Below, in pieces: positions 3,048-8,134 of a stretch of 64,000 bases of DNA (its first letter is position 1; the number at the start of each line of letters is the position of its first letter). This DNA is from Halopseudomonas litoralis. Lineage in GTDB: Bacteria > Pseudomonadota > Gammaproteobacteria > Pseudomonadales > Pseudomonadaceae. The stretch spans positions 2,108,001 to 2,172,000 of the forward strand of contig NZ_LT629748.1 in NCBI RefSeq assembly GCF_900105005.1, written 5' to 3'. The notes below the pieces were generated by a model, which worked only from the letters and a program-made list of their open reading frames with translations, had not been told where the DNA came from and did no database searches. The position numbers were made by a program, and so were the translations under genes.

Positions 3048-4811
3048 ATGAATACATCAATCGAACTTTCTTCTCAACGTGATAACCGGCGCCAGTCCAA
3101 ATTTCTGTACTGGATGGGTTGGCGCGTTACCGATATCGCCGACCTGCTTGGCGAGAAAGAAAAAACGCTGCACACCTGGAAGAGTCGCGACGAGTGGGAT
3201 CGAGCCGACTGCGTCGAGCGGATCGGCGGGGCCCTGGAGGCTCGGCTGGTTCAGCTGATCCTGAAGGACGGCAAGTCCGGTGGCGACTTCAAAGAGATCG
3301 ACCTGTTGCATCGACAGCTGGAGCGGCAGGCACGAATTCAGCGCTACCAGGAGGGCGGTACCGAGGCAGATCTGAATCCGAATATTGCCAAGCGCAACGA
3401 GGGGCCGAAGAAAAAGCCCCGGCGCAATGATTTCAGCGAGAAGGACATCGAGACGCTGACCGAGGCGTTCACCGACGGTTGTTTTGGATACCAGCTGGAC
3501 TGGTTTCGCGCGGGAAATCAGCGAACCAGGGCAATCCTCAAGTCGCGCCAGATCGGTGCGACCTATTACTTTGCCAGGGAGGCGCTGCTCGATGCCCTGG
3601 CCACCGGGCGCAATCAGATCTTCCTGTCAGCATCAAAGAATCAGGCACATATCTTCAAGGGCTACATCCAGGCGTTCGCCCGGGATGTATGCGGTATCGA
3701 GTTGACCGGCGACCCTATCGTTTTAGGCAATGGCGCTGAGCTGCACTTTCTTGGAACAAACGCGCGCACTGCCCAGGGCTACCACGGCAACTTCTACTTC
3801 GATGAGTTCTTCTGGACCCACCGTTTCGACGAGCTCAACAAGGTGGCCAGCGGCATGGCGATGCAGAAGCAGTACCGCCGCACCTACTTTTCGACCCCGT
3901 CGAGCATGGCGCACGAAGCGTATAGCTTCTGGACGGGTGAGCGATTCAATAAGGGCAAGCCCGCGGCACAGCGGCTGTCGATCGATGTGTCCCATGATGC
4001 GCTGCAGCAGGGTCGGCTTTGCGAGGACAAGCTCTGGCGGCAGATCGTCACCATCCTTGACGCCCAGGGGCGCGGCTGCGACCTGTTCGATATCGAGGAG
4101 CTGCGCCAGGAGTACAGCGCTGACGCTTACGCCAACCTGCTGATGTGCCAGTTCGTTGATGACGGGGCCAGTATCTTTCCGCTGGCCATGCTGCAACCGT
4201 GCATGGTCGATAGCTGGATCGAGTGGGCGGAAGATTACAAGCCGTTCGCCATGCGCCCGCTGGGTGATCGGCAGGTGTGGGTGGGTTATGACCCGGCCGA
4301 AACCGGCGACAGTGCCGGACTGGTAGTCGTCGCGCCTCCCTTGGTGCCTGGCGGGAAATTCCGCGTACTGGAGCGGCATCAGTTCCGCGGCATGGACTTT
4401 GCCGCGCAGGCCGAGTCGATCCGGCAGGTAACGATGCGTTACTGGGTAACCTATATCGGTATCGATATGACCGGTATGGGCTCGGGCGTAGCGCAGCTGG
4501 TCAAGAGCTTCTTCCCAAATCTGACCACCTTCAGCTATTCGCCTGAAGTAAAGACCCGCCTGGTGCTCAAGGCCTATGACGTCATCCACAAAGGCCGGCT
4601 GGAGTTCGATGCCGGCTGGACTGATCTTGCCTCTTCGCTGATGGCGATCCGCAAAACCACCACGGCCAGCGGCCGGCAGATGACCTATACCGCCGGCCGC
4701 ACCGATGAAACCGGGCATGCAGATCTAGCCTGGGCCCTATTCCACGCACTGCACAACGAGCCGCTGGAAGGCATGACCTCCCAGAACACCAGCTTCATGG
4801 AGACATTTTGA
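3048..4811 (+). CDS. P: P2-like terminase large subunit (ATPase) gpP
   Basis: Encodes 587 residues, the normal length of P2 gpP (590). The N-terminal region (about 20-60) looks like a helix-turn-helix of the kind that opens these terminases (MGWRVTDIADLLG). The ATPase follows: KSRQIGATYYFAREAL near residue 165 is the family's Walker A variant, and FYFDEFFW near residue 250 holds the Walker B acidic residue. The C-terminal RNase H-like part includes VWVGYDPAETGDSAGL and IGIDMTGMGSG. It overlaps the portal gene by four bases (ATGA), so the two are coupled. It powers DNA entry into the procapsid. Confidence 0.95.
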   Translation: MNTSIELSSQRDNRRQSKFLYWMGWRVTDIADLLGEKEKTLHTWKSRDEWDRADCVERIGGALEARLVQLILKDGKSGGDFKEIDLLHRQLERQARIQRYQEGGTEADLNPNIAKRNEGPKKKPRRNDFSEKDIETLTEAFTDGCFGYQLDWFRAGNQRTRAILKSRQIGATYYFAREALLDALATGRNQIFLSASKNQAHIFKGYIQAFARDVCGIELTGDPIVLGNGAELHFLGTNARTAQGYHGNFYFDEFFWTHRFDELNKVASGMAMQKQYRRTYFSTPSSMAHEAYSFWTGERFNKGKPAAQRLSIDVSHDALQQGRLCEDKLWRQIVTILDAQGRGCDLFDIEELRQEYSADAYANLLMCQFVDDGASIFPLAMLQPCMVDSWIEWAEDYKPFAMRPLGDRQVWVGYDPAETGDSAGLVVVAPPLVPGGKFRVLERHQFRGMDFAAQAESIRQVTMRYWVTYIGIDMTGMGSGVAQLVKSFFPNLTTFSYSPEVKTRLVLKAYDVIHKGRLEFDAGWTDLASSLMAIRKTTTASGRQMTYTAGRTDETGHADLAWALFHALHNEPLEGMTSQNTSFMETF

Positions 4812-5827
4812 TGACTAGCGAAACACCTGCAACCGCCCCGGCCAGCAACGCGGGCATCGAGGCATTCACCTTTGGCGATCCGGCTCCGGTGCTCGATGGC
4901 GGCGACATGCTTGATTACTTGGAGTGCTGGTGGAATGGCCGGTGGTACGAGCCGCCGATCAGTCTGGACGGGTTGGCCAGGTCCACCAAGGCCAGCGTCT
5001 ACCTGCAGTCCGGGCTGACCTTCAAGCGCAACATGCTGAGCCGCACCTTCATTCCTCACCGGCTGCTGTCCCGGGCCGCGTTTGAGCAGTTCGCTCTGGA
5101 TTGGCTCTGGTGCGGCAACGCCTATCTGGAGCGTCGCCGCTCGATGATCGGCACATCAATCACGCTGCAGCCGGTGCTGGCCAAATACATGCGCCGCGGC
5201 GTCGATCTGGACAGCTACTTCATGGTTCGCGGCTGGAAGGATGAACACGAATTCGATAAAGGCACCATCTGTCACCTGCGCGAGGCTGACATCAATCAGG
5301 AAATATATGGTCTTCCGGAATGGCTGGCGGCTCTGCAGTCCGCTTTGCTGAATGAGTCGGCCACACTCTTCCGCCGCAAGTATTACAACAACGGATCCCA
5401 CGCCGGATTCATTCTCTACATGAACGACCCGGCGCAGAACGAGGGTGACGTCAACGCTCTGCGTGAAGCACTGAAAAACGCCAAAGGCCCGGGCAACTTC
5501 CGCAACCTTTTCGTGTATTCACCGGGCGGCAAGAAGGACGGCTTGCAGGTGATCCCTGTCAGTGAAGTGGCTGCAAAGGATGAGTTCAGCAATATCAAAA
5601 ACATTACCCGGGATGACATGCTGGCGGGACTGCGGATCCCGCCGCAACTAATGGGCGTGGTGCCGACCAACGCTGGGGGCTTCGGATCAATCCGGGATGC
5701 CGCCCTGGTCTACGCAGCGAACGAACTGGAGCCTATCCAAACCCGCATGCTGCAGGTCAATGACTGGCTTGGTGAAGAGGTGATTCAGTTTAAGCAGTAC
5801 GAGCTGCCAGGAGGGTCTGACAGCTAA
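4808..5827 (+). CDS. Q: P2-like portal protein gpQ
   Basis: Encodes 339 residues; P2 gpQ is 344. The N-terminal FTFGDPAPVLD, and the interior segments YYNNGSHAGFILYMND and LRIPPQLMGVVPTNAGGFG, are characteristic of this portal family. Twelve copies form the ring through which the terminase pumps DNA. The start overlaps the end of gpP. The gene is complete and is followed 19 bp later by a strong terminator, which ends the P-Q transcript. Confidence 0.95.
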   Translation: MMTSETPATAPASNAGIEAFTFGDPAPVLDGGDMLDYLECWWNGRWYEPPISLDGLARSTKASVYLQSGLTFKRNMLSRTFIPHRLLSRAAFEQFALDWLWCGNAYLERRRSMIGTSITLQPVLAKYMRRGVDLDSYFMVRGWKDEHEFDKGTICHLREADINQEIYGLPEWLAALQSALLNESATLFRRKYYNNGSHAGFILYMNDPAQNEGDVNALREALKNAKGPGNFRNLFVYSPGGKKDGLQVIPVSEVAAKDEFSNIKNITRDDMLAGLRIPPQLMGVVPTNAGGFGSIRDAALVYAANELEPIQTRMLQVNDWLGEEVIQFKQYELPGGSDS

Positions 5828-5867: not shown

Positions 5868-6079
5868 GTGCGTGTGAGGCTTGAAAGTAATGTGCTATAG
5901 ACCGAAAAGGCCCCAGTTAATCATAGCATTCGCGGGTATCAAGCGCTACCGAAACCGCGCTGCTCCAGCAAATTCAGGGCCTGCAGCCTAATCCGCAACT
6001 GGTAAATGACGGGCGCCTGCAGCTTGGGTCGGCAGCTGGTCGGGCGGCCAGCCCCGGAGGCGCATCACCTGGCGCGCGC

Positions 6080-6099
6080 CATCTTCCCCCCACCTCACC
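6080..6099 (-). other. Candidate P2-type cos site
   Basis: On the minus strand this reads GGTGAGGTGGGGGGAAGATG. From memory, the P2 cohesive end is GGCGAGGCGGGGAAAGCAC; the GGYGAGGYGGGG core and the following AAG align. It lies about 250 bp past the 3' end of the portal gene, where cos sits in P2 (the left genome end next to Q). The match is by eye; surrounding cos sub-sites were not resolved. Confidence 0.55.
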
Positions 6100-6249
6100 T
6101 GCGGGCTAAATAGGGCGCTTTTTCTTCGCCCCTTCAGGCGTGCCAGGGCAAGGCCCGACGCGGGCTGGGTGCAGCCGATCGGCTTGCTGGCTTTCCTCGG
6201 AACCCTTCAGGAGCGGAGGATTTCAAGGCAGCGCAAAGCAGCTGGGCCG

Positions 6250-6581
6250 GCGTTTTTTCAGGTCGCCATCGGAAAAGGGTAATATGGTAATGCGGCGCTT
6301 GAAATCAACTATATCTCTTTGATTTTATTGAAGTTTCCGCATTACCATGCAGAGGTAATAATGGGTAATTTAGAAGGTAATATTTATGTAACTCGTTGAT
6401 TCTATTGATGTTTGTTTTTGTCAGATATTACCCTCTGTAAAGGTAATGCCATTACCTTTGTATTACCAATAAATTACCTTTCTTAAATACTTCTAACCGT
6501 TTGATTTCATTGGGTTACAGAGCGTTTCGGCGTCACACCTTACCGATATTACCCTTTTCCGATGGCTCCATGGAAAAACGC
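6250..6581. repeat. Dyad-symmetric GGTAAT/ATTACC array with inverted terminal repeats
   Basis: Twelve perfect hexamers lie in 276 bp. GGTAAT occurs at 6278, 6286, 6354, 6364, 6376 and 6442; ATTACC occurs at 6341, 6427, 6451, 6462, 6473 and 6548. The left half has five GGTAAT and one ATTACC, and the right half mirrors this, with most pairs placed within one base of symmetry around 6415. A perfect 21-bp inverted repeat (6265-6285 and 6546-6566) bounds the array and extends imperfectly to 36 bp. Inside are a 12-bp inverted repeat (6284-6295/6337-6348) and a near-perfect palindrome (6439-6459). A second motif, TTGATTYYATTG, recurs at about 6319, 6396 and 6502. GC is about 30% over 6301-6480. Function unknown; an origin or operator is the leading idea. 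Confidence 0.9.
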
Positions 6582-6686: not shown

Positions 6687-7892
6687 TCACTCGTCCGGCT
6701 CTACCAAGCTGCCGAGCAGATCGGCATACCATTGCATCATGTGCCTGCGCTGCTCCAGGTAGATGGCTTTGTTGTAGACCCCGGCGACACCCTGTTCAAC
6801 GTGCGCAAGTTGCGCCTCTACATGCTCGCGAGCGAAGCCGTTTTCACGCAGCACTGTGCTGGCAATGTGGCGGAAGCCGTGCCCGGTCTGTCGGCCGCCA
6901 TATCCGAGCCGTCGCAGGGCCATGCTGAACACCATGTTGCTGCGCGGCTTGGCTCTGTCGTTTCTACCAGGGAAAAGTAGAGGACGAGCCCCGTTCAAAT
7001 AATGCAGCTGCTGCAGCAGCTCGACCGCCTGGGCGGACAGCGGCACAACGTGGTCCCTGCGCTTCTTCATCCTCTCAGCCGGTATGCTCCACAGCCGAAC
7101 AGCGAGATCGAACTCTGCCCAGGTCGCTTCGCGCAGCTCGCTGGGGCGAACACACGTCAGCATCAGCAGCTGCAGGCCTATCGATACATCAGTTGCATGG
7201 GGGTAGGACTTGATGGCAGTGATCAGCTCCGGCAGTTCTGCCAGGGTAACGTGGGCATAGTTCTGCGCAGGCCGGGTGGACAGGTACTTATGCAGCCCTT
7301 CTATAGGGTTGTGCACCGCGCGCCCGGTGACTCTTGCCAGGTCATATATGTCCCGGCAGTAGCGCCGGACGTTGCCGGTCTGATCGATGATGCCCTTCTT
7401 CTCCATCTGGCGGAAAAAGTCCATCCATTCGATCGGCATAATATGGGTGAAGTCGCGCGCGCCCATTTTCGGGAAAACATGAAGCTCCAGCGAGCCGATG
7501 ATGCGGGTTGCAGTGCCTGGCTGCCATGAGTGCTTTCTGGCGGCAAACCATTCTCTGGCCAGCGCCTCAAAACTCTGGCCTGCCGCTATACGGGCCTCCG
7601 CCCTCGCCGCCTGGCTGGTGACGATCTCCCTGCCGGCAGCCAGTGCCGATCGATGTTCCGCCGCTTTCTGTCGAGCCAGCGCTCCGCTGGTTTCCGGATA
7701 TGCACCCACGCCGGCCCAGCTCCACCTTCCGTCTGGCCGCTTGTATCTGAATTCCCAGCTTTTATGGCCGTTCGGCTTCACCCGGAAATAGAGCCCGCCG
7801 CCGTCATGCTCGCGATAAACCTTTGACTCCGGCTCCAGGCTGGCCAGCACCGTATCAGCCAGCGGCCGGCGCTTGATCTCACTTCTTTTCAT
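6687..7892 (-). CDS. int: P4-type tyrosine integrase
   Basis: Encodes 401 residues with the two-part N-terminus of P4-family integrases: a DUF4102-type domain (PESKVYREHDGGGLYFRVKP near residues 20-45), then the core-binding and catalytic domains. Catalytic residues visible are Arg in VRPSELREATW, the HxxR of HGFRHIAST, and the nucleophile Tyr in VYNKAIYLEQRR. I chose the ATG at 7892, preceded by a CTGGGG ribosome-binding site; an upstream in-frame start at 8000 would run through a terminator and a repeat. The gene lies 166 bp from the 3' end of tRNA-Pro, the usual position beside the attachment site. Confidence 0.94.
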   Translation of the reverse strand: MKRSEIKRRPLADTVLASLEPESKVYREHDGGGLYFRVKPNGHKSWEFRYKRPDGRWSWAGVGAYPETSGALARQKAAEHRSALAAGREIVTSQAARAEARIAAGQSFEALAREWFAARKHSWQPGTATRIIGSLELHVFPKMGARDFTHIMPIEWMDFFRQMEKKGIIDQTGNVRRYCRDIYDLARVTGRAVHNPIEGLHKYLSTRPAQNYAHVTLAELPELITAIKSYPHATDVSIGLQLLMLTCVRPSELREATWAEFDLAVRLWSIPAERMKKRRDHVVPLSAQAVELLQQLHYLNGARPLLFPGRNDRAKPRSNMVFSMALRRLGYGGRQTGHGFRHIASTVLRENGFAREHVEAQLAHVEQGVAGVYNKAIYLEQRRHMMQWYADLLGSLVEPDE

Positions 7893-7893
7893 C

Positions 7894-7944
7894 CGTGTAT
7901 GCCCCAGTTCGAAGAAAGCACGGGCATACACGCTGGCATACACG
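7894..7944. promoter_or_regulatory. Three GGCATACACG repeats upstream of int
   Basis: The decamer GGCATACACG occurs twice as direct copies 12 bp apart (7923-7932 and 7935-7944) and once inverted at 7894-7903, where it covers the integrase ribosome-binding site. The phased copies look like protein-binding sites. They could be integrase arm-type sites or an operator controlling int; the sequence does not tell which. Confidence 0.6.
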
Positions 7945-7959
7945 GCTGAGTGGGCTGGA

Positions 7960-8051
7960 ATGATGCAACATGAGACGACCTGAAACAACAAAGCCCGCAC
8001 GGGGCGGGCTTTGTAGGGTGGTTATGATGCAACTTGAGACTACCTGAAACA
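7960..8051. repeat. 28-bp direct repeat pair between int and the tRNA
   Basis: Copies at 7960-7987 and 8024-8051 match at 26 of 28 positions (both begin ATGATGCAAC and end CCTGAAACA). They flank a terminator hairpin, and the second copy ends six bases from the tRNA CCA end. Repeats here are expected to be integrase or excisionase arm sites, but a duplicated insertion joint is also possible. Confidence 0.7.
7990..8012. terminator. Terminator hairpin downstream of tRNA-Pro
   Basis: AAAGCCCG pairs with CGGGCTTT around a short loop, giving T-rich sequence on both strands. It can end the leftward tRNA-Pro transcript before it enters int. Since it lies on the prophage side of the attachment site, the element would be supplying the tRNA terminator. 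Confidence 0.75.
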
Positions 8052-8057
8052 TGCAAT

Positions 8058-8134
8058 TGGTCGGAGCGACTGGAATCGAACCAGCGACCTTCTCGTCCCG
8101 AACGAGACGCGCTACCAGGCTGCGCTACGCTCCG
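8058..8134 (-). tRNA. proT: tRNA-Pro (anticodon CGG)
   Basis: A complete 77-nt cloverleaf on the minus strand: acceptor stem CGGAGCG pairing with CGCTCCG, D-loop with GCGCAGCCTGGTAGCGC, anticodon loop TTCGGGA giving CGG, T-loop GGTTCGATTCC, and encoded CCA at 8058-8060. Its 3' end faces the integrase, so this gene is the attachment site of the P2-like element, and the tRNA is rebuilt intact at the junction. The gene symbol is a guess. Confidence 0.97.

Follow-up and report, generated by a model that had tools for sequence, protein, structure and literature searches.

A probable iteron replication origin beside cos in phiCTX-like P2-type phages, with a hexamer that covaries with the phage primase-helicase

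Phage P2 replicates by a gpA-driven rolling circle from an origin inside gene A, and the origin of P4, ori/crr, consists of short iterons at two separate iteron loci. In P4 alpha, primase and initiating helicase are fused in one protein (passages of PMC7145576). The Rep protein of the Staphylococcus aureus pathogenicity islands (SaPIs) is reported to use its C-terminal domain to read an iteron origin, apparently in the form of two hexamers; Cch of the staphylococcal cassette chromosome SCCmec is related to Rep of SaPIbov1 (both from the passages of PMC7581432 on these proteins). As regards phiCTX, the relevant section of a 2009 classification states that ogr and int are the only P2 regulatory genes it has, and that cos and attP are adjacent in it (PMC2771037). 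Here we describe a 332-bp element at 6250..6581 of a 64,000-nucleotide stretch of Halopseudomonas litoralis DNA (contig NZ_LT629748.1, positions 2,108,001 to 2,172,000; hereafter the window), which contains the right end of a prophage. We propose, with a probability of roughly 0.83, that the element is an iteron replication origin of phiCTX-like P2-type phages, read by their own primase-helicase. An earlier inspection of the letters of the window (the sequence-only reading) had put an iteron origin of a P2-like element first among its possibilities, and this is the best-supported reading.

The element is very probably a known kind of origin in a new setting and arrangement. These phages share with P2 the same kind of portal and terminase genes, but their initiator and origin appear to be different: P2 gpA (PF05840) was found in none of 28 element-bearing records (a set that includes G052, of 22.7 kb, and excludes G073), in a search where a control genome gave a match. 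The distant analogy once drawn to P4 ori/crr extends to the short iterons and to the fusion of primase and helicase but not to the number of arrays, as there is a single one per record here (18/18 phage records scanned) and there are two in P4. Moreover, the helicase part here models closest to Cch and SaPIbov1 Rep, and there is no D5-type domain among the Pfam domains listed for the primase. The phage protein is a probable initiator helicase that resembles SaPI Rep and SCCmec Cch in its predicted fold and ends in a putative DNA-binding domain. Like the SaPI origin, the array consists of several short repeats, which in SaPI are reported to be read by the C-terminal domain of Rep (passages of PMC7581432). 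In contrast to both, the phage protein has a DnaG-type primase fused in front. The array differs from that of SaPI in its many sites, its mirror arrangement and its place beside cos. It also lies, on the excised circle, ~3.3 kb downstream of the primase-helicase gene in the window phage (by coordinate arithmetic) and ~6.1 kb in phage Dobby, whereas SaPI origins are described directly downstream of rep. The origin of PLE, a satellite of a Vibrio phage, is likewise a phage-world replicon whose iterons are bound by its own initiator, although that initiator is of the RepA_N type rather than a primase-helicase (passages of PMC7145576).

The segment is unannotated in the publicly deposited sequences of phiCTX, Dobby and Sirocco, and in D14A it is overlapped by two hypothetical proteins. 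The paper on Stenotrophomonas phage Smp131 names a primase-like gene and considers whether other repeats close to attP might be sites for the integrase, and its passages on those features do not mention the array (PMC3931495). Literature on phiCTX, Citexvirus and P2-like replication, mostly at the level of listings, yielded no paper on this origin. The repeats may have been noted in the 1993 phiCTX attP-cos paper and in the SaPI origin papers. The parts of the element in the window are as follows.

6250..6581, no strand: entire element, proposed to be the replication origin; its terminal arms are imperfect (they match each other within the own genome; a 345-bp profile matches here and in relatives)
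6265..6285, + strand: left arm of a perfect 21-bp inverted repeat (read from the sequence)
6278..6291, + strand: left outer iteron pair, R1 (6278) and R2 (6286)
6341..6381: left inner iteron group, R3 (6341, -), R4 (6354, +), R5 (6364, +) and R6 (6376, +)
6382..6441: AT-rich core between the inner groups, proposed unwinding region (60 bp, 72% AT)
6442..6478: right inner iteron group, R8 (6442, +), R9 (6451, -), R10 (6462, -) and R11 (6473, -)
6539..6553, - strand: right outer iteron pair, R12 (6539, degenerate CTTACC) and R13 (6548)
6546..6566, - strand: right arm of the perfect 21-bp inverted repeat (read from the sequence)

Twelve perfect GGTAAT/ATTACC sites, namely R1 to R11 (with R7 at 6427 on the - strand) and R13, span 6278-6553, all at the places within 276 bp given by the sequence-only reading. 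That they are too ordered for chance was borne out by 1000 dinucleotide shuffles of the 332 bp, in which GGTAAT occurred 0.35 times on average with a maximum of 3; no shuffle held 12 copies of any hexamer (largest 10). The claimed mirror symmetry stands as regards the layout and the centre, which had been put near 6415 and was found near 6415.5. However, it is incomplete, as sites 6341, 6427 and 6442 have no perfect partner and 6286 is mirrored by the degenerate CTTACC at 6539. The 21-bp inverted repeat said to close the array is indeed perfect, and longer imperfect arms enclose it, starting at 6250 and ending at 6581 (88% identity over ~41 bp). A second recurring motif was also rightly recognised, TTGATTYYATTG being present at 6319, 6396 and 6501; the AT-rich core contains TTGATTCTATTG at 6396 together with R7. 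GC content had been put too low, at about 30%, and measures 37% across the 332 bp and 34% across 6278-6553. No open reading frame (ORF) of at least 80 codons in the window ORF list covers the element.

A blastn search with the window element gave no match in the phage or plasmid collections, and one with the element of locus L044 gave no phage match. We used the portal gene (gpQ) as the anchor for finding related phages, and the loci fetched in this way carry arrays of the same span made of other hexamers. A profile built from these loci identified 40 distinct full-length elements, including those of phiCTX, Dobby and D14A (46 matches less 6 duplicates; 3 further matches, the reverse duplicate L005 and the partial L068 and L043, were unused). 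Sirocco and OQ658368 also matched in a blastn search with the element of one relative, and Smp131 carries the element with GGTAAC (E 1.1e-25). The segment is a conserved phage element rather than a MITE (miniature inverted-repeat transposable element).

A recognised cos lies beyond the portal gene in 42 of 80 portal loci, and the element is present in 39 of them; 2 more have the element with cos outside the scanned part, and 36 have neither, most of which end soon after the gene. Moreover, the cos pattern matched 20 of 398 genomes of the family of the window, at 21 sites, 20 of which have the element (cut by a contig end in one case). The cos sites without it are L014, L048, L083 and L171. Three phage records among these have neither primase nor gpA; two of them look partial or rearranged, and the third is a 12.7-kb fragment. 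A further 20 portal relatives were chosen because the fetched locus was without the element. None has a cos motif beyond gpQ (G447 has one cos-like 11-mer, placed elsewhere), and therefore their lack of the element says nothing.

Relatives keep the layout, an AT-rich core flanked on each side by an inner group and, further out, by an outer pair. R1-R13 span 269-276 bp, the distance from cos to R1 is 189-217 bp (39/40 copies measured), and the spacing within the inner groups is 9-12 bp in Dobby, about one helical turn. The 60-bp core has a mean of 72% AT, the highest of seven segments. The hexamer itself changes by phage, the sets being GGTAAT, GGTTAG, AGTAAT/AGTAAC, GGTTAC and CGTTAC. Of the two features whose conservation in related prophages the sequence-only reading had made a condition, symmetry is kept and the hexamer is not. 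Most iterons within one phage share one hexamer or a near variant, and most copies change together: the commonest hexamer fills 12/12 fixed places in phiCTX, Dobby and D14A and 10-11/12 in the window. Over the 40 copies the count ranges from 2/12 to 12/12, with a median near 7, and sharing is lowest in the mixed arrays of L036 (2/12) and L016 (3/12). Because the hexamers change in concert at fixed places, a protein-bound array is indicated. Two loci also carry an unrelated dense tandem TTAGAA repeat, 15 copies in 350 bp (L036:9999-10346 and L039:7424-7771).

The candidate partner is a replication gene at the other prophage end, a co-occurrence that the sequence-only reading had suggested checking. 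Matches to a 906-aa Dobby protein annotated as primase/helicase occur in 32 of 39 element-bearing records (the 40 less phiCTX, whose record has 2.4 kb), and all 28 records of at least 28 kb are among them, one matching just in part. The 7 records without a match are all shorter than 25 kb. Of the 32 matches, those of G067 and G072 are weak and via another protein, and G043 has the last 160 residues alone. In the window phage the gene encodes 894 aa and lies at 2080989-2083673, outside the window. Among 20 further portal relatives primase is present in 19, and the one without it (G452) has gpA. The element is present and primase absent in G335 and G394, which look like remnants with host genes near gpQ when their translations are judged by eye.

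The model of the window phage primase resembles a DnaG primase (2au3, E 1.6e-5), SCCmec Cch (5dgk, 3.0e-5) and SaPIbov1 Rep (8tch, 8.5e-4), with the helicase part at low confidence. Its C-terminal 165 residues are predicted to form a helical part and a winged helix (predicted local distance difference test, pLDDT, 88); structural matches of this part modelled in isolation are weak, and sequence searches of the PDB gave nothing useful. P4-type origin-binding folds are absent from the fold-match lists, an absence that carries no weight. In 4 of the records compared, a second shorter protein follows the primase gene (L115:4247-5068, L120:4169-5065, L121:4130-5065 and the low end of L102) and matches residues ~530-780 of the primase, in its helicase part. 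The annotated Smp131 primase (L224:3107-5659) ends unlike the sequence of its relatives, which suggests a frameshift in the record or the gene.

Covariation shows that the hexamer goes with the primase-helicase of the phage, above all with one Lys/Arg position in the predicted C-terminal winged helix. Across 19 records, and among the families present in all of them, primase correlates best with iteron distance (rho 0.40, compared with -0.11 for portal and 0.10 for gpP). Three families present in 11-14 records scored above primase (0.54, 0.44 and 0.41), some of which may be real small genes. We then paired arrays with primases, giving 42 pairs from 28 phage records and 14 genomes, with 41 distinct arrays. 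Excluded from the 39 records were the 7 without a match and G043, G067, G068 and G072, which have no usable C-terminal primase part. Left out of the 19 genomes were G335 and G394, which lack a primase, G356 and G194, whose primase lies on a different contig, and G137, with antirepressor-type matches only.

The best of 896 primase columns at predicting iteron base 1 is residue K/R888, which lies on the final strand of the predicted winged helix and is right in 41/42 pairs. Lys888 occurs with base-1 G in 27/27 pairs and Arg888 with A or C in 14/15. Base-1 G accounts for 64-100% of the sites in phages with Lys888; in those with Arg888 its share is 9-45%, L032 (91%) excepted. On a tree of the rest of the primase, K/R requires at least three changes and base 1 at least four, and four also suffice for the two combined, so that every K/R change may fall together with a change at base 1. 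In the 28 phages the best column for base 1 reaches 27/28 in primase, against 21 in Q, 22 in P and 22 in O (baseline 20); that of capsid N reaches 19/26 (baseline 18). Portal, terminase, scaffold and capsid have no column tracking iteron base 1.

Several points limit this covariation. One clear mismatch stands among the 42 pairs, G045, which combines a GGTTAG array (L032) with an AGTAAT-type primase (L120) and is perhaps a recombinant. Moreover, column 888 was picked as the best of all columns, three K/R switches are few, L036 is a near tie at base 1, and iteron base 4 is less well predicted (37/42).

A more specific scheme is conceivable, which we advance tentatively and think more likely wrong than right. 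Here, initiator and origin would be matched by a naturally occurring specificity code: Lys/Arg at 888 would read iteron base 1, whole arrays of 12-13 sites would be retuned together with the layout fixed, and Bro-N/P22_AR_N antirepressor-type proteins with the same winged helix would serve as regulators of replication, or as competitors, at that origin. Such proteins, of 282-305 aa and sharing the primase C-terminal domain, are encoded at L220:4568-5431, L220:15480-16397 and L217:6228-7076, two of the three within ~1 kb of cos and the array. They may regulate the origin.

Around the element, the right end of the prophage carries genes for a gpP-like terminase and the portal, then cos and the element itself, and beyond these the gene of a tyrosine integrase and tRNA-Pro.

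4808..5827, + strand: portal gene, gpQ (Pfam Phage_portal, E 3.5e-16; blastn to annotated portal genes)
6080..6100, + strand: cos site, counterpart of the annotated 21-bp phiCTX cosR (match of the pattern GGCGCGCGCCRTCKTCCCCCC at 6071-6091; alignment with phiCTX cosR)
6687..8000, - strand: tyrosine integrase gene, separating the element from attR (Pfam matches to Phage_integrase, E 8.7e-21, and Arm-DNA-bind_3)
8053..8071: attR, a 19-bp repeat at the 3′ end of tRNA-Pro

Because the 19-bp tRNA-Pro repeat at 8053 recurs at G000:C1:2079208, the prophage is taken to be ~36.9 kb long. In phiCTX the element lies between the annotated cosR and the attP core. Whether the element always lies between cos and int had been raised as a check; that position is seen in the window and in phiCTX, with the qualification that the att core of phiCTX falls between array and int. 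Therefore, array and int of phiCTX would stand at opposite prophage ends once integrated. A conserved CCTGCGGAACCCTGCG-type double repeat was also observed between cos and the element in aligned loci (about 6190-6240 in the window, and its counterparts), which is perhaps the real terminase-binding site.

The constant distance to cos, and the presence of the array beside nearly all cos sites seen, would also fit a packaging site, that is, an extended, cosB-like array recognised by terminase. We consider this improbable, since the hexamer changes and the terminase stays: no gpP column tracks base 1 beyond 22/28 (baseline 20; gpM lay outside the scan), gpP correlates poorly with iteron distance (rho 0.10), and the separate CCTGCGGAACCCTGCG-type repeat is already present between cos and the element. 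A multi-site operator or regulator array without origin function, for instance for a repressor or for the Bro-N/P22_AR_N antirepressor-type proteins that share the winged helix, had been named as an alternative and seems to us no better a prospect. Antirepressor-type proteins with the same C-terminal domain do lie near the array in some prophages. However, they occur in some records only, compared with primase in 28/28 records of at least 28 kb, and no conserved gene start is found at the array in the loci listed. Iteron identity tracks primase, a tie that a plain operator leaves unexplained.

A structured RNA, also named earlier, is highly improbable. Single copies give stable folds, at -120.9 kcal/mol (z -11.6) on one strand and -109.4 kcal/mol (z -9.7) on the other, and the + strand is the more stable in 36/40 copies; the strong single-copy folds arise because of the inverted repeats. 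In one MAFFT alignment of the 40 copies, however, the consensus fold is nearly gone (-10.5 and -9.7 kcal/mol), and its 22 consensus pairs have 32 G-T cells against 28 A-C cells, favouring neither strand. There is no Rfam match within the element. Finally, integrase arm-type sites or a transposon such as a MITE, suggested by the nearness to attP in phiCTX and by the inverted terminal arms, can be dismissed with similar firmness: the distance to the att core varies (158 bp in phiCTX, ~1.5 kb with int between in the window) while that to cos is constant, and a dispersed MITE is contradicted by the single copy in the own genome (the self match), the absence of the element from 36 other genomes of the genus by blastn and the one copy per record in 18/18.

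For the iteron origin that we favour, we propose the following sequence of events. By likeness to SaPI and SCCmec, the winged helices of the primase-helicase would probably bind the iterons, and helicase rings would assemble on the two inner iteron groups. The AT-rich core would then melt and the helicase load, after which the fused DnaG-type primase would start synthesis following infection or excision. The array and the primase-helicase module would in this way replace gpA of P2. An origin at this location would explain the replication of P2-type phages without gpA, and would link their primase-helicase to the SaPI/SCCmec kind of initiator. Moreover, initiator-origin specificity could be tested on the naturally retuned arrays and the proteins that match them, with no engineered change needed.
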